Shown here piece after piece: positions 4,280 through 13,618 of a stretch of DNA of 13,618 bases (position 1 is the first letter of the stretch; every line of letters begins with the position of its first letter). The notes below the pieces were generated by a model. It saw only the letters and a program-made list of their open reading frames with translations. It was not told where the DNA came from and ran no database searches. Source of the DNA: an uncultured Alphaproteobacteria bacterium (GTDB lineage Bacteria > Pseudomonadota > Alphaproteobacteria > Rhizobiales > Hyphomicrobiaceae); assembly GCA_937950105.1 (NCBI GenBank), contig CALFEM010000585.1, positions 1 to 13,618 of the forward strand, written 5' to 3'. The position numbers and the translations under genes are program-made.

Positions 4280-4308
4280 TTGCAATCGAAAACGAGTTGC
4301 GCCATAAG
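4280..4308 (+). promoter_or_regulatory. Candidate sigma-70-type promoter for tRNA-Gly
   Basis: TTGCAA at 4280-4285 and CATAAG at 4303-4308 are separated by exactly 17 bases and lie about 47 bases before the tRNA. Each hexamer matches the consensus at four of six positions. The rest of the stretch from 4104 to 4354 shows no credible gene. Confidence 0.4.
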
Positions 4309-4354
4309 ACGGGGCCGTCGCCCACCGGGCGCCACGGATTTACCCTTTTGGAAT

Positions 4355-4429
<75 letters not shown>

Positions 4430-4434
4430 TCGGT

Positions 4435-4455
4435 CCGGCGCAAAGCCGGTTTCTT
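4435..4455 (+). terminator. Short intrinsic terminator after tRNA-Gly
   Basis: CCGGC at 4435-4439 pairs with GCCGG at 4445-4449 around a five-base loop, followed directly by TTTCTT. It begins six bases after the tRNA CCA, where transcription of a single tRNA gene would be expected to stop. Confidence 0.6.
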
Positions 4456-4481
4456 CCGATAACGCGACACGACTTCTGTCC

Positions 4482-4499
4482 CGCCCGGTTCGCCGGGCG
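4482..4499 (-). terminator. Hairpin just past the ParA-like gene
   Basis: A perfect seven-pair stem (CGCCCGG / CCGGGCG) with a four-base loop lies 25 bases past the stop of the ParA-like gene. Neither strand has a U-tract, so it is a terminator-like or transcript-end-protecting structure in the convergent gap between the tRNA and the ATPase gene. Confidence 0.4.
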
Positions 4500-4524
4500 T
4501 CGGACGGTCGTGTCATCTTGCGCC

Positions 4525-5388
4525 TCAGCCGGTCGCGGCGACCGCTGCCGGCCGGTCGGCCGCCTTCGCCAGCCGCTCGAGCAGCTCCGACGATACCGCG
4601 CGGATCGATTGTCCGACCAGCCCCGGATATTTGGCCATGTAGGAGCGATCCGGCGGCGTGAAGCGCGCCGCATCCTGCAACGGTCTCAGGAACGGCAGCG
4701 CCTGCACGAAGCAGTTGTTGTCCGGGTTGGCTTTCAGCCACGCCTCGTACTCGGCGTCGGCCGGCGCATGCAGGTCCTTCATGTTGATCAGCACGCCGAT
4801 GTTGGCAGCGAAGCCCATTTCCGGATTGAGCGACTTGAAGCGGCGGAATATCTCGAGGCCGCACAGCGAAACGTAGTCCGGTTTGGTCGGCGACAGATGG
4901 AAATCAGCCTCGCGCAGCCACGCCTCGGTGAGCACCGAGAGGCCCGGCGGACAATCGATCAGCACCACATCGAAGACGTTACGAACCTCGGCGAGCAATG
5001 CCCGCACCACGTGGCGCAACCGCGCATGCTGGCTCTCGCGCGAAACCTCACGCTCGAACAGCGTCAGTTGCATGTCGCTCGGAATGACGAAAATGCTGCG
5101 CGCGTCGTCGACGTCCGATACGTCGCGGACGACATAATCGGTCCAGGCCGGTGTGCCTTCCTGCAGTACGCTCGCGACCAGGTAATCGACCAGCGTAGCG
5201 CTGTCGGTCTGCAGCTTGTGCAGGCTGGCGACCGACATCAGCATGCTCGACACGCTGGCCTGCGCGTCACTGTCGATGACCAGCACGGACTTGCCGTGGC
5301 AGGCCGACAGGGTCTCGGCCAGTGCCATTACCAGCGTCGACTTGCCGACGCCGCCCTTGGTGTTCATCACCGCCACGGTATTGCGCAT
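4525..5388 (-). CDS. ParA/MinD-family ATPase (orphan ParA-like)
   Basis: A 287-residue P-loop ATPase of the ParA/MinD/Soj class. The deviant Walker A box KGGVGKST is at 11-18, including the signature lysine Lys11. The A' motif VLVIDSDAQAS follows at about 35-45 and the Walker B-like VVLIDCPPG near the middle, the features of proteins that dimerise on ATP and move cargo on DNA or membrane surfaces. The start at 5388 places the Walker box at the usual distance from the N-terminus, with GGGGCGG upstream. An in-frame start at 5487 would add 33 low-complexity residues. No ParB, parS-like cluster, MinC/MinE or McdB-like gene is visible nearby, so its cargo is unknown. It is bounded by hairpins on both sides and is probably transcribed alone. 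Confidence 0.88.
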   Translation of the reverse strand: MRNTVAVMNTKGGVGKSTLVMALAETLSACHGKSVLVIDSDAQASVSSMLMSVASLHKLQTDSATLVDYLVASVLQEGTPAWTDYVVRDVSDVDDARSIFVIPSDMQLTLFEREVSRESQHARLRHVVRALLAEVRNVFDVVLIDCPPGLSVLTEAWLREADFHLSPTKPDYVSLCGLEIFRRFKSLNPEMGFAANIGVLINMKDLHAPADAEYEAWLKANPDNNCFVQALPFLRPLQDAARFTPPDRSYMAKYPGLVGQSIRAVSSELLERLAKAADRPAAVAATG

Positions 5389-5536
5389 CGTGGCACCGCC
5401 CCGTCCCGCTCTGGCGCCCGCCGGCCATCCCGGCTGCGGACGCGCACTCCCACCCGACTGCGAGGCGAACCAGACAAACCCGGCCAAAGCGAGGCCATGC
5501 CCGTTCCGCGCGTCGGCATCGTGCGTCCCGACAGCC

Positions 5537-6715: not shown

Positions 6716-7228
6716 TCACAGATCGGCGGCGAGCGGGCCGAGGCCGGCGAGAACCTCGCGATAAACCTCCGCCTTGAACGGCACCACGAGGTCCATCAGC
6801 TCGGATCGCTTCGCCCACCGCCAGGCGTCGAACTCGATTTCGTGGTCGGGTGGCGAGATGTCGATCTCGCTGTCGTCGCCGAGAAAGCGCACCGCGAACC
6901 ACTTCTGCTTCTGCCCGCGATAGCGTCCGCCCCACTTCTTGCCGAGCAGTTCCTTCGGCAGGTCGTAGTAGAGCCAGTCGGGATGCTCGGCCACGATCTC
7001 GATGGAGCGGATGCGCGTCTCCTCGTAAAGCTCGCGGCGCGCGGCGGCGGCGGGGTCCTCACCCTTGTCGATGCCGCCCTGCGGCATCTGCCACCACGTG
7101 CCCGGGCCTTCGACGATGTGCTGCTTGGCGTCGGAGCGCTGCCCGAGCCAGATCAGGCCGTCGCGATTCAGAACCATGATGCCGACGCACGGCCGGTATT
7201 CGAGCTTGCTGACGTCGATCTTGCTCAT
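6716..7228 (-). CDS. rppH: RNA pyrophosphohydrolase (Nudix)
   Basis: A 170-residue Nudix hydrolase of the RppH/NudH type. It converts 5'-triphosphate ends of RNA to monophosphates, opening them to RNase E decay, and can also cleave dinucleoside polyphosphates. The Nudix box spans residues 51-73 (GGIDKGED...RRELYEETRI), with the metal-binding glutamates 66, 69 and 70 in place. The usual glycine near the end of the box is Arg72. Flanking RppH features are YRPCVGIMVLNRDG, WWQMPQGG, DWLYYDLP and YRGQKQKWFAVRF. I chose the ATG at 7228: GAGGAG lies six bases upstream, and an in-frame ATG at 7279 would put the start against the ctpA terminator. The gene lies after ctpA but is separated from it by that terminator, so it probably has its own promoter. 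Confidence 0.93.
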   Translation of the reverse strand: MSKIDVSKLEYRPCVGIMVLNRDGLIWLGQRSDAKQHIVEGPGTWWQMPQGGIDKGEDPAAAARRELYEETRIRSIEIVAEHPDWLYYDLPKELLGKKWGGRYRGQKQKWFAVRFLGDDSEIDISPPDHEIEFDAWRWAKRSELMDLVVPFKAEVYREVLAGLGPLAADL

Positions 7229-7281
7229 GGTGCGCTCCTCGGCTCGCTTCCGCCGCTTCATAACGGAAGCGGACGACATGA

Positions 7282-7311
7282 AAAAGGGCGCCTCGCGGGA
7301 GACGCCCTTTT
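7282..7311 (-). terminator. Intrinsic terminator after ctpA
   Basis: A 13-pair stem with a single mismatch (arms 7282-7294 and 7299-7311) and a GCGG loop. On the minus strand it ends in five T. It starts 30 bases after the ctpA stop and should terminate the envC-ctpA transcript before rppH. The plus strand also ends in T's, so the element could work in both directions. Confidence 0.85.
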
Positions 7312-7340
7312 CGTTTCGATCGGAAGCAGTGACGAAGGCT

Positions 7341-8699
7341 TCAGTTCGCCTTCTTCTCCGGCGCGGGCGTCGGCTCGGGGCTCTTGGTCGCCTCGACCGG
7401 GGCCGCGGCGATCTTGCCGCGCAGGAAGTTCAGCGCGTACTGGAGCTGGGTGTCCTTCTCGGGCTCCTTCGGCACGTAGGCCGACGAGCCGGACTTGTCC
7501 TCCTGCTCCTTGTCGTTCTTCAGGTGGCCGCGCAGGCTCGACTCGCCGCGCACCTTGGTCTGCGCCGCCTTCGCCTTCATCTCCTCCGGCAGCTCCTGCT
7601 CGACGATGATGTCGGGATCGATGCCCTTGGCCTGGATCGAGCGGTTCGACGGCGTGTAGTAGCGTGCCGTCGTCAGGCGGATGGCGCCGTTGGCGTTCAA
7701 CGGGATGATGGTCTGCACCGAGCCCTTGCCGAACGAGCGCGTGCCGATGACGGTGGCGCGCTTGTGGTCCTGCAGGGCGCCGGCGACGATTTCAGACGCC
7801 GAGGCCGAGCCGCCGTTGATGAGCACGACGACCTTCTTGCCCTTGGCGACGTCACCCGGGCGGGCCTGGCTGCGCTGGGTTTCCTCGTTGTTGCGGCCCT
7901 TCGTCAGAACGATGGCGCCGCGCTCGAGGAAGTCGTCCGACACCGAGATCGCCTGATCGAGCAGGCCGCCCGGGTTGTTGCGCAGGTCGATGATGTAGCC
8001 CTTGAGGTCGCCACCGATCTCCTTCTCGAGGTTCTCGATCGCCTTCACCGTGTTGGTGTGCGTCTGCTCGTTGAAGGTCGTCACCTTGACATAGGCGACG
8101 TCACCCTCGCGGCGCGCCTTGACGGCGTTGATGCGAATGATGTCGCGCGTAACCTTCACGTCGAACGGGTCCTCGGTGCCCTTGCGCACGACGGTCAGCG
8201 TGATCGGCGTGTTGACGGGCCCGCGCATCTTCTCGACCGCCTGCTCGAGCGTCAGGCCGACGATCTGCTCGTTGTCGAGATGTGTGATGAGGTCGTTCGC
8301 CTGCAGGCCGGCCTTGGCGGCCGGCGTGTCGTCGATCGGCGACACCACCTTGACGACGCCGTTCTCCATCGTCACCTCGATGCCGAGACCGCCGAACTCG
8401 CCGCGTGTCTGCACCTGCATGTCGCGGAAGTGCTTCGGGCTGAGGTAAGCGGAATGCGGGTCGAGCGACGTCAGCATGCCGTTGATGGCGCTCTCGATGA
8501 GCTGCGTGTCGTCGGGTTTCTCGACGTAATCGGAGCGCACGCGCTCCAGCACGTCGCCGAACAGGTCCAGCTGACGATAGAGGTCGGAGTTCGCCGACGT
8601 CGCCGAGTGCGTCTGGGTGATGCTGGCGACGGTGGCGACGCCGGCCATGCCGGTCATCAGCAGGAATGTCCAGAATGCGAAGTCGGTCTTGCGCATCAT
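7341..8699 (-). CDS. ctpA: Carboxy-terminal processing protease, S41 family
   Basis: A 452-residue periplasmic serine protease of the CtpA/Prc family. An N-terminal hydrophobic segment (about 7-28) is a signal peptide or anchor. The family leader LFGDVLERVRSDYVEK is at 46-61, a PDZ domain covers about 95-175 (GEFGGLGIEVT, DTPAAKAGLQANDLI), and the S41 core runs about 195-365. The catalytic dyad is Ser300 in GGSASASEI and Lys325 in RSFGKGSVQT; the 25-residue spacing matches the family. The C-terminus (about 373-452) is charged, then Pro/Ala-rich. Such proteases cut exposed C-termini of envelope proteins, often with a helper lipoprotein, and limit peptidoglycan hydrolases. Its ATG overlaps the envC stop as ATGA, so the two are probably translationally coupled. 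It is followed by an intrinsic terminator. Confidence 0.95.
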   Translation of the reverse strand: MMRKTDFAFWTFLLMTGMAGVATVASITQTHSATSANSDLYRQLDLFGDVLERVRSDYVEKPDDTQLIESAINGMLTSLDPHSAYLSPKHFRDMQVQTRGEFGGLGIEVTMENGVVKVVSPIDDTPAAKAGLQANDLITHLDNEQIVGLTLEQAVEKMRGPVNTPITLTVVRKGTEDPFDVKVTRDIIRINAVKARREGDVAYVKVTTFNEQTHTNTVKAIENLEKEIGGDLKGYIIDLRNNPGGLLDQAISVSDDFLERGAIVLTKGRNNEETQRSQARPGDVAKGKKVVVLINGGSASASEIVAGALQDHKRATVIGTRSFGKGSVQTIIPLNANGAIRLTTARYYTPSNRSIQAKGIDPDIIVEQELPEEMKAKAAQTKVRGESSLRGHLKNDKEQEDKSGSSAYVPKEPEKDTQLQYALNFLRGKIAAAPVEATKSPEPTPAPEKKAN

Positions 8700-9124
8700 T
8701 CTTGCACCTTCTCAGGACCGCTGGCCCACCACGGGCTCGGGTCGATGGGACGTCCGTCCTTGCGCAGCTCTACGTAAAGAACGGGAGTGTTGGTTTCACT
8801 CTTGGTCTCGCGAAGGAGACCGCCTCCTGGAGTCGTCGCGCCGCTCATGGTGCCGACGGGCTCCGCCGCCAGCACGAATTGTCCAGGCTCGACGTCGATA
8901 CGTGACAGGCCAGCCAATAGAAGAAGATAGCCGCCGCCCGCATTGATTATCAAGAGTTGACCGAAGCTGCGGAATTCGCCCGCATAAATCACCCAGCCGT
9001 CGCACGGGGCGGTGATCTGGGCGCCGGAGCGTGTCTCGATCACCACGCCCTTCGAGGGATGGCCATATTTTGTCTTCTCGCCGAAATTGAGGACGCGCTG
9101 GCCGCTGGCCGGCAGCGGCAGCTT
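8696..9124 (-). pseudogene. envC: envC 3' part: degenerate LytM (M23-like) domain cut off by an in-frame TGA
   Basis: This is the C-terminal 142 codons of the EnvC-type protein, in the same frame as the upstream part and separated from it only by the TGA at 9125-9127. It reads LPLPASGQRVLNFGEK, then SKGVVIETRSGAQITAPCDGWVIYAGEFRSFGQLLIINAGGGY, GLSRIDVEPGQFV and TPVLYVELRKDGRPIDPSPWW, a full LytM fold. The zinc ligands of active M23 peptidases are absent: HxxxD is replaced by SKGVV, and HLHFE by VLYVE. That is the hallmark of EnvC-class activators, which bind and switch on AmiA/B/C-type amidases and do not cleave themselves. The only internal start, GTG 9046, would drop about 27 residues of the fold. 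The stop overlaps the ctpA ATG. The fragment is probably not made unless the TGA is a sequence error. Confidence 0.8.
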
Positions 9125-9127
9125 TCA
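9125..9127 (-). other. In-frame TGA interrupting envC
   Basis: Reading the minus strand, ...FHQAR, TGA, KLPLPASG... stays in one frame on both sides. Relatives usually have a small residue such as Gly here before LPLP (from memory), so a GGA-to-TGA change (one base) is the simplest explanation. It is either a true nonsense mutation or a base-calling error. Confidence 0.85.
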
Positions 9128-10366
9128 GCGCGCCTGATGGAACGGGATGGCGGGCTTGATGCGGCCGGTGTCGGCGCGCATGCCGCTGCCGGGCCTCAGC
9201 TCCACGATCTCGCCGGGTTTCGGCACAGTGATGGCGGCGACCTTGGTCGGCGGGGCGGGCGGCCGGGCAGCATCCGATGGCGGCGCCACACCTGGTTGTC
9301 CGCCGACGGATTCGGGCGTGACGACGATCGGCCCGCTCGGCGTTGCTGCCGCTGCGGGTGGCGAGGCCGGCGCCGGACCGCTGGCGGCCGGTGTCGCTGC
9401 TGCAACTTCGGCGGCTTCGGCGGCGCGCGCCTCCTTGTCGTAGGCACCGAGCCCGGTGTTCTGGTTCACCGCCAGATCAACGCGGGCGATGAGTTCGTTC
9501 AGGTCGTTGACGCTCTTCGAGATGTCGGCGGTGGCGCGGCGGACATCGGCCAGCTCCGCCTTGCGCTGGGCGAGCGACTGCTTGCGCTCTTCCATCAGCC
9601 CGGCGAGCTTGGTCTGCGCATCGGCGAGACGATCGGTCTCGGCCTTGAGGCGCTGGCTCTCGTTGCGGATGTCGTCCATCACCCGCACCAGCTCCTGCAG
9701 CCGCGTCGACAGCTGCAGCGCCTGGCCGCGCAGCTCGGGGAAGGCGGCGGCGAGCAGCATGGCGCTGCGCACTATCTCCAGCGCGTCGGAGCGTTGCGTG
9801 ATCATCACGGGCGGCGGATTGCGGCCCATGCGCTGCAGCGCGCCGAGCAGCTTGGAAATCTGACCGTGGCGGGTGTCGAGCGAGCCGCGCACGAGCTTTT
9901 CCTGCGCCTCGAGTTCGCCGAGCCGCGCCTCGATGCCGGTCAGCTTGCTTTCGCTCTTCTGGATCAGCGCCGCCGTTTCGAGCAGCCGCGCGTTGATGCG
10001 CTCGCGCTCGGCATCGATGTCGGTGACATCCTTCGAGAGGGCATTCTCGCGATCCTTCTTCGACAGCAGCTCCTGCTGCTGGGCCTCGAGCTTGCGGCGG
10101 ATGGCGTCGGGTTCACGCTCTTGAGCGAGCACCGCAACGGGCGCCAGCGACACCGAGCCGGCCAGGGCGACCGCGAGCGCCAGCGACACGCCGGCGGCGC
10201 GGCCCGACGACCGCGCGCTGTCGTGCCCGGCTGGACGTTTCGCAACTGCCGCTCGCCGGCCCAATCCTGAAAATCCTCGTTCACGCCGCCGATCGCGGCC
10301 GGGGCATTCCCGCGCCACGTCTGCACAAGACACTGATTCGCGGAAATTACGGCAAATCTGGTCCAT
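9125..10366 (-). CDS. envC: Murein hydrolase activator EnvC, N-terminal coiled-coil part (prematurely stopped)
   Basis: 413 residues that match the front of an EnvC-type amidase activator. A hydrophobic segment with an AVLA cleavage site (about 58-81) is the export signal. Long coiled coils follow (about 88-195 and 215-310, e.g. LEAQQQELLSKKDRENALSKDVTDIDAERERI), with QRMGRNPPPVMI between them, then a Pro/Ala-rich linker (about 313-400). Translation ends at TGA 9125-9127, exactly where the linker should pass into the LytM domain. Without that domain the protein should not activate amidases. The N-terminus is unsure: 57 residues precede the signal from ATG 10366, which has no Shine-Dalgarno, while a TTG at 10264 has GAGGA nine bases upstream. 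envC plus ctpA form an operon here; its promoter must lie in 10367-10580, shared with the divergent HIG1 gene. Confidence 0.85.
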   Translation of the reverse strand: MDQICRNFRESVSCADVARECPGRDRRRERGFSGLGRRAAVAKRPAGHDSARSSGRAAGVSLALAVALAGSVSLAPVAVLAQEREPDAIRRKLEAQQQELLSKKDRENALSKDVTDIDAERERINARLLETAALIQKSESKLTGIEARLGELEAQEKLVRGSLDTRHGQISKLLGALQRMGRNPPPVMITQRSDALEIVRSAMLLAAAFPELRGQALQLSTRLQELVRVMDDIRNESQRLKAETDRLADAQTKLAGLMEERKQSLAQRKAELADVRRATADISKSVNDLNELIARVDLAVNQNTGLGAYDKEARAAEAAEVAAATPAASGPAPASPPAAAATPSGPIVVTPESVGGQPGVAPPSDAARPPAPPTKVAAITVPKPGEIVELRPGSGMRADTGRIKPAIPFHQAR

Positions 10367-10580
10367 GGCACGTTAAACTTCGTTAGGGGAGCAGCCTTAA
10401 CGGCGCCGGGTGCTCCTGCGGCGAACGACCGCTGTCCACGGGCGCCTGCCACCTCGCGATTGCCGTGCACGATATGTAAGTTCAGCACCCGCTCCGGTTT
10501 CAGCTTTGGACGTCCGGGTTCCGGCTGTCTCTGCCCCGATCGCCGCGCGCATCTCACGTCACCGAAGGAATTGCGACACC

Positions 10581-10772
10581 ATGGATGTCGGCCTCTATTA
10601 TCTGTCTACGATCGCGGTGTTCGCCGTGCTCGCGGTGCTCGTCATGGGTTTGTGGAACCTGTCGCGCAATCGCAGCGCCAATCTCAGCCAGAAGCTCATG
10701 CGCTGGCGTGTCGGCCTGCAGTTGCTCGCCATTGTACTCATCATCGTCTATCTGCTGGTCCTGAAGCGGTGA
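10581..10772 (+). CDS. Small HIG1-type twin-transmembrane protein
   Basis: A 63-residue inner-membrane protein with two hydrophobic helices (about 5-27 and 43-61) joined by a basic loop, SRNRSANLSQKLMRWRVGLQ. This matches the HIG1/hypoxia-induced domain pattern, in which the loop and the start of the second helix carry the conserved (S)xxLMRxRVxxQ motif. Eukaryotic relatives (Rcf1/HIGD) stabilise respiratory complexes, cytochrome oxidase in particular; the bacterial role is not established. I chose the ATG at 10581: GAAGGA lies upstream at the right distance, and longer in-frame starts add only Arg/Pro-rich residues. It is ten bases from the adenosyltransferase gene and probably co-transcribed with it. 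It is divergent from envC. Confidence 0.85.
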   Translation: MDVGLYYLSTIAVFAVLAVLVMGLWNLSRNRSANLSQKLMRWRVGLQLLAIVLIIVYLLVLKR

Positions 10773-10782
10773 GCCTCGTCCC

Positions 10783-11364
10783 ATGGTCAAGCTGAACAAG
10801 ATTTACACGCGCACAGGTGACAAGGGTACGACCGGGCTCGGAACCGGCGAGCGCGTCGCCAAGCACGCCTTGCGCATCGCCGCCTATGGCACCGTCGACG
10901 AGGCCAATGCCACCATCGGCGTCGCCCGCCTGCATATCCCGGCGGACTTCGCGCGCGTCGACCAGATGCTGCTCAGGATCCAGAACGACATGTTCGACCT
11001 CGGCGCCGATCTGTGCGTGCCGGATCGCGGCGAGACGCTGCCGTACGAGCCGCTGCGCATCGCCGCGGCGCAGGTGACGCGCCTCGAGGCCGAGATCGAC
11101 GAACTCAATGCCGAGCTGGAGCCGCTGCGCTCGTTCGTGCTGCCGGGCGGCACGCCGGCGGCGGCGCACCTGCACATCGCCCGCACGGTGACGCGCCGAG
11201 CCGAACGGTTGATCTCGGAGCTGGCCGCCGATTCGTCCGAGCCGGTCAGCGAGCCGGCGCTGCAGTTCGTCAACCGTCTGTCGGACTTCCTGTTCGTCGC
11301 CGGCCGCTACGTCAACGACCGGGGCCGTGGCGACGTTCTCTGGGTGCCGGGCCAGAACCGCTGA
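10783..11364 (+). CDS. Cob(I)alamin/cobyrinate adenosyltransferase, PduO type
   Basis: A 193-residue ATP:cob(I)alamin adenosyltransferase of the PduO class. It transfers the adenosyl group of ATP to reduced corrinoid cobalt in the cytosol, making adenosylcobalamin or its precursor. Motifs in order are the N-terminal ATP-binding KIYTRTGDKGTTGL (6-19), AYGTVDEANATIG (34-46), SFVLPGGTPAAAHLH in the middle, then ARTVTRRAERL and the C-terminal NRLSDFLFVAGRYVN. The length is normal for a single-domain PduO. Adenosylcobalamin serves enzymes such as methylmalonyl-CoA mutase and class II ribonucleotide reductase; none is in the window, so this looks like a general cofactor gene. The ATG at 10783 is ten bases after the HIG1 gene, and the rhomboid gene follows 110 bases later. 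Confidence 0.94.
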   Translation: MVKLNKIYTRTGDKGTTGLGTGERVAKHALRIAAYGTVDEANATIGVARLHIPADFARVDQMLLRIQNDMFDLGADLCVPDRGETLPYEPLRIAAAQVTRLEAEIDELNAELEPLRSFVLPGGTPAAAHLHIARTVTRRAERLISELAADSSEPVSEPALQFVNRLSDFLFVAGRYVNDRGRGDVLWVPGQNR

Positions 11365-11415
11365 GCGCTGAGCTGCTGACTGACTGTTGCCGGAGGCCGC
11401 CGGTGTCATGATAGG

Positions 11416-11444
11416 GTTGCGGTCGCGCCTGCGACGCGGGCAAC
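11416..11444. repeat. Intergenic inverted repeat before the rhomboid gene
   Basis: GTTGC...GCAAC (11416-11420 / 11440-11444) encloses GTCGC...GCGAC (11422-11426 / 11431-11435) with a four-base loop. There is no U-tract. It lies between the adenosyltransferase stop and the rhomboid start and could be a leader hairpin. Confidence 0.35.
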
Positions 11445-11474
11445 GCTATCCCTGTACCGGAGGACGTGCGCCCC

Positions 11475-12182
11475 GTGTTCGTGCCGCTGCAAGACGACAA
11501 TCCGCTGAAGCGGATCAAATACCAGTACGTCAACGTCAGCCTCATAGTCGCCAACGTCGTCGTCTTCCTGCTGTCGCTCGCCGGCAGCACGGACCACGTC
11601 GTGGCGAGCTTTGCCGTGATCCCGGGAGAGCTGTTCGGCTTCTCGGCGGGCGGCTTTCCGCAGAGCGTGCAGATCCCGGAACGGCTGACGCTGCTGACCT
11701 ACATGTTCTTCCATGGCGACATCATCCACATCGGCGGCAACATGCTGTTCCTGTGGGTGTTCGGCGACAACGTCGAGGACGCCATGGGCCACGCCCGCTA
11801 CCTCGTCTTCTATCTGCTCTGCGGCCTGCTTGCCGGACTCGCCCATGCGGTGATCGCACCAGGCTCCGAGGTGCCGCTGATCGGCGCCAGTGGCGCCGTC
11901 GCCGGCGTCATTTCCGCCTACCTCATGTTGCATCCCCGAGTTCGCGTATGGGTGCTCGTGTTCAAGGTATTCCCGATGCAGATCAGCGCGGCGATCGTGC
12001 TCGGGCTGTGGATCGTCACGCAGATCGTCATGGTGCTGATGCCTCAATCGGCGCAGGAGCCGGGAGCCGTCGCCTGGTGGGCGCACATCGGCGGACTGGT
12101 CGCCGGAGCCGTGCTGGTGCCGTTCTTCAAGCGCCGGGACGTCCCGCTGTTCGATCGCGGGCTCCGCATCGCCCGAAGGTAA
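11475..12182 (+). CDS. Rhomboid family intramembrane serine protease
   Basis: A 235-residue polytopic membrane protein of the rhomboid family, which cleaves transmembrane segments of other proteins within the bilayer. The catalytic serine is Ser139 in LIGASGAVAGVISAY and the partner histidine is His204 in WWAHIGGLVAG. The oxyanion-region motif FFHGDIIHIGGNMLFLWVFGDNVED (78-102) contains the conserved His85 and Asn89. About six hydrophobic segments are seen, the first near 19-37. I chose the GTG at 11475, which gives the family-like start (M)FVPLQDDNPLKRIKYQYV, with GGAGG eleven bases upstream. The in-frame GTG at 11466 is only two bases from that GGAGG. Substrates are unknown. The gene lies between the adenosyltransferase and etfB. 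Confidence 0.93.
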   Translation: MFVPLQDDNPLKRIKYQYVNVSLIVANVVVFLLSLAGSTDHVVASFAVIPGELFGFSAGGFPQSVQIPERLTLLTYMFFHGDIIHIGGNMLFLWVFGDNVEDAMGHARYLVFYLLCGLLAGLAHAVIAPGSEVPLIGASGAVAGVISAYLMLHPRVRVWVLVFKVFPMQISAAIVLGLWIVTQIVMVLMPQSAQEPGAVAWWAHIGGLVAGAVLVPFFKRRDVPLFDRGLRIARR

Positions 12183-12538
12183 AAAGTGTTGTTCGTCATC
12201 GAGTTGAGACGTTGCCGGACGTATGCGCCGGAACGACAGTGGTAAACCCGGCTCACGCCGAAGGGTTCCATTGACTCCGGCAAAAGCCGCACATAGGCTC
12301 CCGTTTCGCATGTGCGAAGACCGGTACGCCCGGAGGAATCCGGGGTGTGCGGGTGGGCGCGCAAGCCTTTCCGGCATTGCCATCGCGGCGCACAATGGCC
12401 GCTCCCCTTCCGGGTGAGGCAAAGTCGAGGCCGGGTCAGGGCGGTCCGGCCGGAAGCACCATAATTCGCGGATTGCGTCGGCATGACGACGCTTCCGGAT
12501 GCCGACAAGAGCAAACGTCTTCGGGGATCGCAGGACAC
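12183..12538. other. 356-base gap between the rhomboid gene and etfB
   Basis: I see no convincing gene here: short open frames are Arg/Pro-rich and lack a family resemblance or ribosome-binding site. It presumably holds the etf promoter. An eight-base inverted repeat, GTCGGCAT / ATGCCGAC (12477-12484 and 12499-12506), lies 32 bases before the etfB ATG and could be an operator or leader hairpin. Confidence 0.5.
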
Positions 12539-13294
12539 ATGAAGATACTGGTGCCGGTGAAGCGGGTGGTGGACTACAACGTCAAGATCCGCGTCAAGGC
12601 CGACGGCTCAGGCATCGAGCTGGCCAACGTCAAGATGTCGATGAACCCCTTCGACGAGATTGCCGTCGAGGAAGCGGTGCGCCTCAAGGAAAAGGGTGTC
12701 GCCACCGAGGTCTTGGTCGTCTCCATCGGCCCGGCGAAGGCGCAGGATACCATTCGCACCGCGCAGGCCATCGGCGCTGATCGCGGCATCCTGGTCGAAA
12801 CGCCCGAGAGTGCGACTGTCGAGCCGCTCGCCGTCGCCAAGATCCTCAAGGCGATCGTCGCCGCCGAGCAGCCGTCGATGGTGATCCTCGGCAAGCAGGC
12901 GATCGACGACGACAGCAATCAGGTCGGCCAGATGCTCGCCGCTCTGCTCGGCTGGGGCCAGGGCACCTTCGCCTCCAAGGTGGCCGTCGCCGACGGCTCG
13001 GTCGCCGTGACGCGTGAGGTCGACGGCGGCCTCGAGACGGTGTCGCTGAAGCTGCCGGCCATCGTCACCACGGACCTGCGTCTCAACGAGCCGCGCTACC
13101 CGTCACTGCCGAACATCATGAAGGCGAAGAAGAAGCCGCTCGATACGAAGAAGCCCGAGGATTACGGCGTCGACATCACTCCGCGCCTCGAGGTGCTCGG
13201 CACCGTCGAGCCCGCCAAGCGCCAGGCCGGCATCAAGGTCGGCAGCGTGGCCGAGCTGGTGGCGAAGCTCAAGAGCGAAGCAGGGGTGCTCTGA
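12539..13294 (+). CDS. etfB: Electron transfer flavoprotein, beta subunit
   Basis: A 251-residue ETF beta subunit. With EtfA it forms the FAD-containing heterodimer that takes electrons from acyl-CoA and other dehydrogenases and passes them to the quinone pool through ETF:quinone oxidoreductase. Visible family features are [19 protein letters not shown] (1-19), [21 protein letters not shown] (34-53), the AMP-site stretch [24 protein letters not shown] (116-139), and [24 protein letters not shown] (177-200). The last is the recognition loop that docks on partner dehydrogenases; its lysines are methylated in some ETFs. The length is typical of the housekeeping group I ETF, not the nitrogen-fixation FixA. 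The ATG at 12539 has AGGA six bases upstream. Its stop overlaps the etfA start (ATGA), so the subunits are translationally coupled. Confidence 0.97.
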
Positions 13295-13571
13295 TGACGA
13301 TTCTGGTTCTCGCCGAGCATGACAACGCGTCGCTCAATGCAGCGACCGGAAAGGCACTCACCGCTGCGAAAGCGATCGGTGGCGACATTCACGTTCTCGT
13401 TGCGGGCAGCGGCTGCAAGCCGGCCGCCGACGCCGCGGCCAGGCTCGACGGCGTCGCCAAGGTGCTTGTCGCCGACGCGCCGCATTTCGGCAACGCCCTC
13501 GCCGAGGAAGTCGCGCCGCTGATCGTGTCGCTGATGGGCGGGTACGACGCGGTGCTCGCGCCCGCTACGGC
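13294..13571 (+). CDS. etfA: Electron transfer flavoprotein, alpha subunit (5' part only)
   Basis: The first 92 codons of Etf[41 protein letters not shown] is the normal N-terminal domain start, followed by VAKVLVADAPHFGNALAEEVAPLI and GGYDAVLAPAT. After 13571 the frame runs into adapter sequence and reads DRKSTRLNSSH, which is not EtfA. The conserved FAD-binding C-terminal domain is therefore missing from the window because the contig ends, not because the gene is broken in the organism. The ATG overlaps the etfB TGA by one base. Confidence 0.95.
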
Positions 13572-13618
13572 AGATCGGAAGAGCACACGTCTGAACTCCA
13601 GTCACTTAGGCATCTCGT
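13572..13618 (+). other. Illumina TruSeq adapter with index (non-genomic contamination)
   Basis: Bases 13572-13605 are the 34-base TruSeq read-1 3' adapter (beginning AGATCGGAAGAGC, ending CCAGTCAC). They are followed by TTAGGC (13606-13611), which is TruSeq index 3, and by ATCTCGT, the start of the constant sequence after the index. On the minus strand the adapter translates as VTGVQTCALPI, a well-known false peptide in databases. This is library construct, not organism DNA. Confidence 0.98.

Follow-up and report, generated by a model that had tools for sequence, protein, structure and literature searches.

The last 47 bases of the window, by which we mean the whole analysed stretch of 13,618 nucleotides, are virtually certain to be biologically functionless synthetic DNA, an Illumina TruSeq index-3 adapter that escaped trimming and is attached to the genuine but truncated 5' part of an etfA gene (Table 1). 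Read directly, this segment (13572-13618) extends to the very end of the window and reproduces the start of the adapter base for base. The finding is an ordinary data error, an artefact that represents nothing real in biology.

The original prediction had described the segment as an exact 47-base match to the TruSeq adapter, index 3 and the post-index sequence, and this description is borne out both by the letters themselves and by published oligo tables. The 'TruSeq Adapter, Index 3' is printed as GATCGGAAGAGCACACGTCTGAACTCCAGTCACTTAGGCATCTCGTATGCCGTCTTCTGCTTG (PMC10000876), an identical sequence appears as Index Adapter 3 (PMC11616997), the same full oligo is found in a table of TruSeq adapters (PMC4404573), and a matching index primer is given together with an adapter whose printed form begins with an A and leaves the index blank (PMC4801390). 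Counted from the first G of the oligo, as printed in PMC10000876, the window shares 46 of 46 bases, and the A preceding this G corresponds to the leading A in the spelling seen in PMC4801390; the printed oligo comprises 63 bases, the final 17 of which are missing from the window. The identification as TruSeq index 3 thus rests on published tables. A search allowing up to three mismatches located the 34-base constant part once in the window, with zero mismatches, and in none of 200 shuffles, while the probability of meeting the 47-mer by chance at one given position, calculated from base composition, is about 10^-29. The adapter is absent from the first 180 bases of the window, and none of the TruSeq universal, Nextera and P7 stretches tested is present anywhere in it. 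The assignment to the class of untrimmed TruSeq adapters at assembly ends is thus based on an exact match to the constant oligo sequence, a listed index (TTAGGC) followed by the post-index constant sequence (ATCTCGT), and a terminal position at which the native sequence breaks off at the adapter's first base. This first A (13572) we take to be the A-tail position of the library chemistry.

Table 1. Features of the window, with the adapter-derived elements listed first.
Feature	Position	Strand	Evidence
TruSeq indexed-adapter constant part AGATCGGAAGAGCACACGTCTGAACTCCAGTCAC, 34 bases	13572..13605	+	exact match; PMC10000876, PMC11616997, PMC4404573, PMC4801390
Six-base index TTAGGC, TruSeq index 3	13606..13611	+	named index 3 in PMC10000876, PMC11616997
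Post-index constant sequence ATCTCGT, first 7 bases	13612..13618	+	read directly; oligo in PMC10000876
Hybrid codon 93 (GCA, alanine), two native bases and the adapter's first A	13570..13572	+	
Spurious ORF, 147 aa; GTG start and first 11 codons (MTGVQTCALPI) are adapter	13162..13605	-	no Pfam family
etfA, genuine truncated 5' part, 92 whole codons and two bases	13294..13571	+	PF01012; tblastn match in 80/80 related loci
etfB, complete; stop overlaps etfA start	12539..13294	+	PF01012, 149.4 bits; relatives up to 82% identity
PduO-type adenosyltransferase	10783-11364		passes NCBIfam cutoff
S41 C-terminal processing peptidase	7341-8699		passes NCBIfam cutoff
RppH	6716-7279		passes NCBIfam cutoff
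tRNA-Gly (anticodon gcc)	4355-4429	+	

Upstream of the join, 278 bases of etfA read as an ordinary EtfA start. The encoded protein, whose query sequence included the false tail, scores 62.9 bits against PF01012 (cutoff 26.7), and it is assigned to the N-terminal part of EtfA by this score above the curated cutoff and by the position of its gene directly after etfB. Its C-terminal FAD-binding domain would, we assume, fall past the contig end, and the remainder of etfA is presumably either part of another contig or missing from the assembly. The last genuine base is 13571, and the DNA up to there looks sound. Accordingly, the recommendation to treat the contig end as low quality applies to the bases after 13571 but not to those before it, whereas the claim that any annotation reaching past 13571 is artefactual stands with the refinement that codon 93 is a hybrid.

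The position of the join is further defined by comparison with related loci. When genome_contigs was scanned with EtfB, 592 relatives emerged, and the comparison used the best 80; the top one, from a Hyphomicrobium MAG, shows 82% identity. In each of these best 80 loci, a distance of 3 to 214 bases separates the EtfB match from the EtfA match that follows it, and the reading frame continues beyond the equivalent of the window's join. The native continuation, K-N-x-x-P-R-x-A-A, is invariant in 80/80 of them, and at seven positions that are likewise invariant (K96, N97, P100, R101, A103, A104 and D107) the window has K, S, L, N, S, H and I. The window therefore departs from the native EtfA sequence at the join, in agreement with the prediction that the adapter is fused to the end of etfA. 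At the nucleotide level, its mean identity to the 80 relatives falls from 59.9% across the 48 bases up to and including codon 92 to 28.5% across the 47 adapter bases, and the value after the join is lower than that before it in every single relative. For both the residue and the nucleotide comparison, codon 92 was placed by gap-free extrapolation in 5 of the 80 loci, where the match ended earlier. A shuffled adapter reaches 25.1% (sd 5.3), and the relatives among themselves share 72.2% over the 49 bases following codon 92. Identity to the native gene is 43.8% for the first 12 adapter bases and drops from 28 to 18% for later ones (18.1% in the last stretch). Because of this early resemblance, which we take as chance, tblastn alignments of the chimeric EtfA overrun the join, extending to residue 97 in 55 and to residue 98 in 3 of the 80 relatives.

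Translation of the adapter generates false protein ends on both strands, largely in the form originally predicted. EtfA gains the hybrid alanine and then DRKSTRLNSSHLGIS, in a frame that remains open up to the contig end and finishes with ...APATADRKSTRLNSSHLGIS, that is, the anticipated 11-residue tail (DRKSTRLNSSH) followed by LGIS, which is encoded by the index and post-index bases. On the minus strand, the spurious frame expected to begin with (M/V)TGVQTCALPI indeed does so, reading M from its GTG start, and the stop ahead of it derives from the index, whose TTA is TAA on that strand. A protein search with this minus-strand ORF gave 5 matches among 446 candidates, none containing TGVQTCALP, so its false head is not demonstrated elsewhere; we infer that the five matches come from other etfBA genes read in antisense. 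The literature search yielded no paper on the peptides VTGVQTCALPI and RKSTRLNSSH. Neither the tail of EtfA nor the head of the minus-strand frame is genuine.

The same false tail recurs on a second EtfA. Among the 120 matches listed of the 494 obtained in a protein search with the chimeric EtfA, one EtfA fragment (P0008) ends with ...GKNIMPRVAALLDVMQISEDRKSTRLNSSHLGIS. Its tail is identical to that of the window and hence contains the same index, but it starts at residue 114 instead of residue 94, 20 residues later, after a native GKNIMPRVAALLDVMQISE stretch. Residues 1-93 of the two proteins align without gaps at 63% identity, and P0008 retains the native motif that is missing from the EtfA of the window. 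That two related proteins acquire one and the same tail at different positions is expected of an adapter but not of an evolving C-terminus.

As to the origin of the artefact, the anatomy of the join, together with library chemistry, points to read-through of a short insert as the route of entry. At least one library insert would have ended at 13571; the sequencing reads would have continued past the A-tail into the ligated adapter with its index and would have been left untrimmed, and the assembler would have carried the contig into adapter k-mers and then halted because such k-mers are common to many unrelated inserts. Less probably, and rather unlikely in our view, the adapter was introduced by a chimera formed during library preparation, in which it was joined to an unrelated fragment or an adapter dimer. 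As the contig ends within the adapter, its sequence is compatible with this route as well as with read-through, but the join has the plain form of an A-tailed ligation, in which the first adapter base directly adjoins native DNA. In either case, read-through or ligation chimera, the 47 bases are an artefact and have no biological function.

Explanations that place the sequence in the genome itself fare far worse. Constructs with Illumina ends, such as barcoded insertion libraries, exist, and one of them could in principle have integrated into etfA; however, native etfA and the adapter directly abut, with no transposon end, marker or other construct sequence between them, making this scenario extremely improbable, and even if true it would reflect the history of the strain rather than new biology. 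Yet harder to credit is the idea that etfA varies naturally in this way, or that the genome itself contains a sequence resembling the adapter by accident: although the frame stays open to the contig end and the alignment drifts a few residues beyond the join in 58 of the 80 relatives, the 47 bases are identical to a synthetic oligo, residues invariant in all 80 relatives are lost, the same tail is found on P0008, and megablast of the 47 bases matched none of 72,556 plasmid records. A natural etfA terminus is ruled out by the 80 relatives and the oligo identity, and no observation speaks against the segment being an adapter.

The stretch from 6716 to 13508 of the window is collinear in gene order with a contig of a Hyphomicrobium MAG (L001), blastn pieces showing 67-87% identity. 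The RppH stretch matches this contig twice, at 4297-4715 and 4954-5419.

Annotated records also contain adapter DNA of the same kind. With the 47 bases as megablast query, matches were obtained in 16 of 50,697 phage records, including two pairs of duplicate records of one phage each, and the adapter lies within 300 bases of the record end in 12 of the 16 and more than 300 bases from it in the other 4. The query further matched 2 of 5,426 E. coli genomes, neither match covering more than 80% of the query and both internal to chromosomes. One of these is the complete chromosome of E. coli SK0832 (NZ_AP046542.1; L206 1501-1620), in which an adapter whose index has eight bases, together with the remainder of the P7 oligo and an A-rich run, is located between annotated cheY and cheB. 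The genome of Staphylococcus phage Andhra (KY442063.1) carries annotated 155-base repeat regions at both ends (14-168 and 18380-18534), each of which holds 42 bases of TruSeq adapter with index ACAGTG (L208 14-55; L207 601-642). With adapter in both repeats, the annotated terminal repeat looks partly artefactual; the adapter goes unmentioned in the passages covered of the paper on the inverted terminal repeats of this phage. In Stenotrophomonas phage vB_SmaS_Bhz63 (OR797046.1; L209 401-434), a 34-base exact adapter match falls within the annotated gene of a hypothetical protein, which may thus be chimeric.

The significance of these observations is limited to data hygiene. We recommend trimming the record to 13571, and a STRLNSSH tail or TGVQTCALPI head on a protein is grounds to suspect a chimera. 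Adapter-derived tails reach protein collections, as exemplified by P0008, and deposited phage genomes contain adapter DNA, once within annotated terminal repeats. Screening of assemblies for adapters is existing practice, with FCS-adaptor described in PMC11809032.

Close counterparts of the contig end studied here are adapter-bearing contigs from IMG/VR, which derive from other samples and carry the same 47-base frame near their ends. The exact 47-mer was found in 16 viral_contigs stretches from three sample accessions, and the frame with the index left free in at least 120 stretches; combined, both scans yielded at least 125 distinct loci with one match each (L081-L205). Among these 125 listed loci, the six index positions show 15 different values, and 90 loci carry one of indexes 1-6 as named in PMC10000876. 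An index other than that of the window is present in 109 of the 125 listed loci, the share of TTAGGC (16 of 125) being inflated by the first, exact-47-mer scan. In 86 of the listed loci no more than 50 bases separate the outward side of the adapter from the locus end, and in 123 no more than 250; only in two (L102 and L163) is it found 644 and 1244 bases inward. Of the listed loci, 31 represent part of a longer contig, and in all 31 the adapter points towards the actual end of that contig. In six loci (L081, L086, L089, L093, L095 and L096) the full adapter gives way to a run of A, after which about 60 to 150 bases of other sequence extend to the contig end, probably as a result of reading past the end of the template. 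Beyond the 47-base frame, 33 of the 125 listed loci end while still within the oligo and 11 diverge from it, whereas 81 continue through the 17 further adapter bases that are missing from the window.
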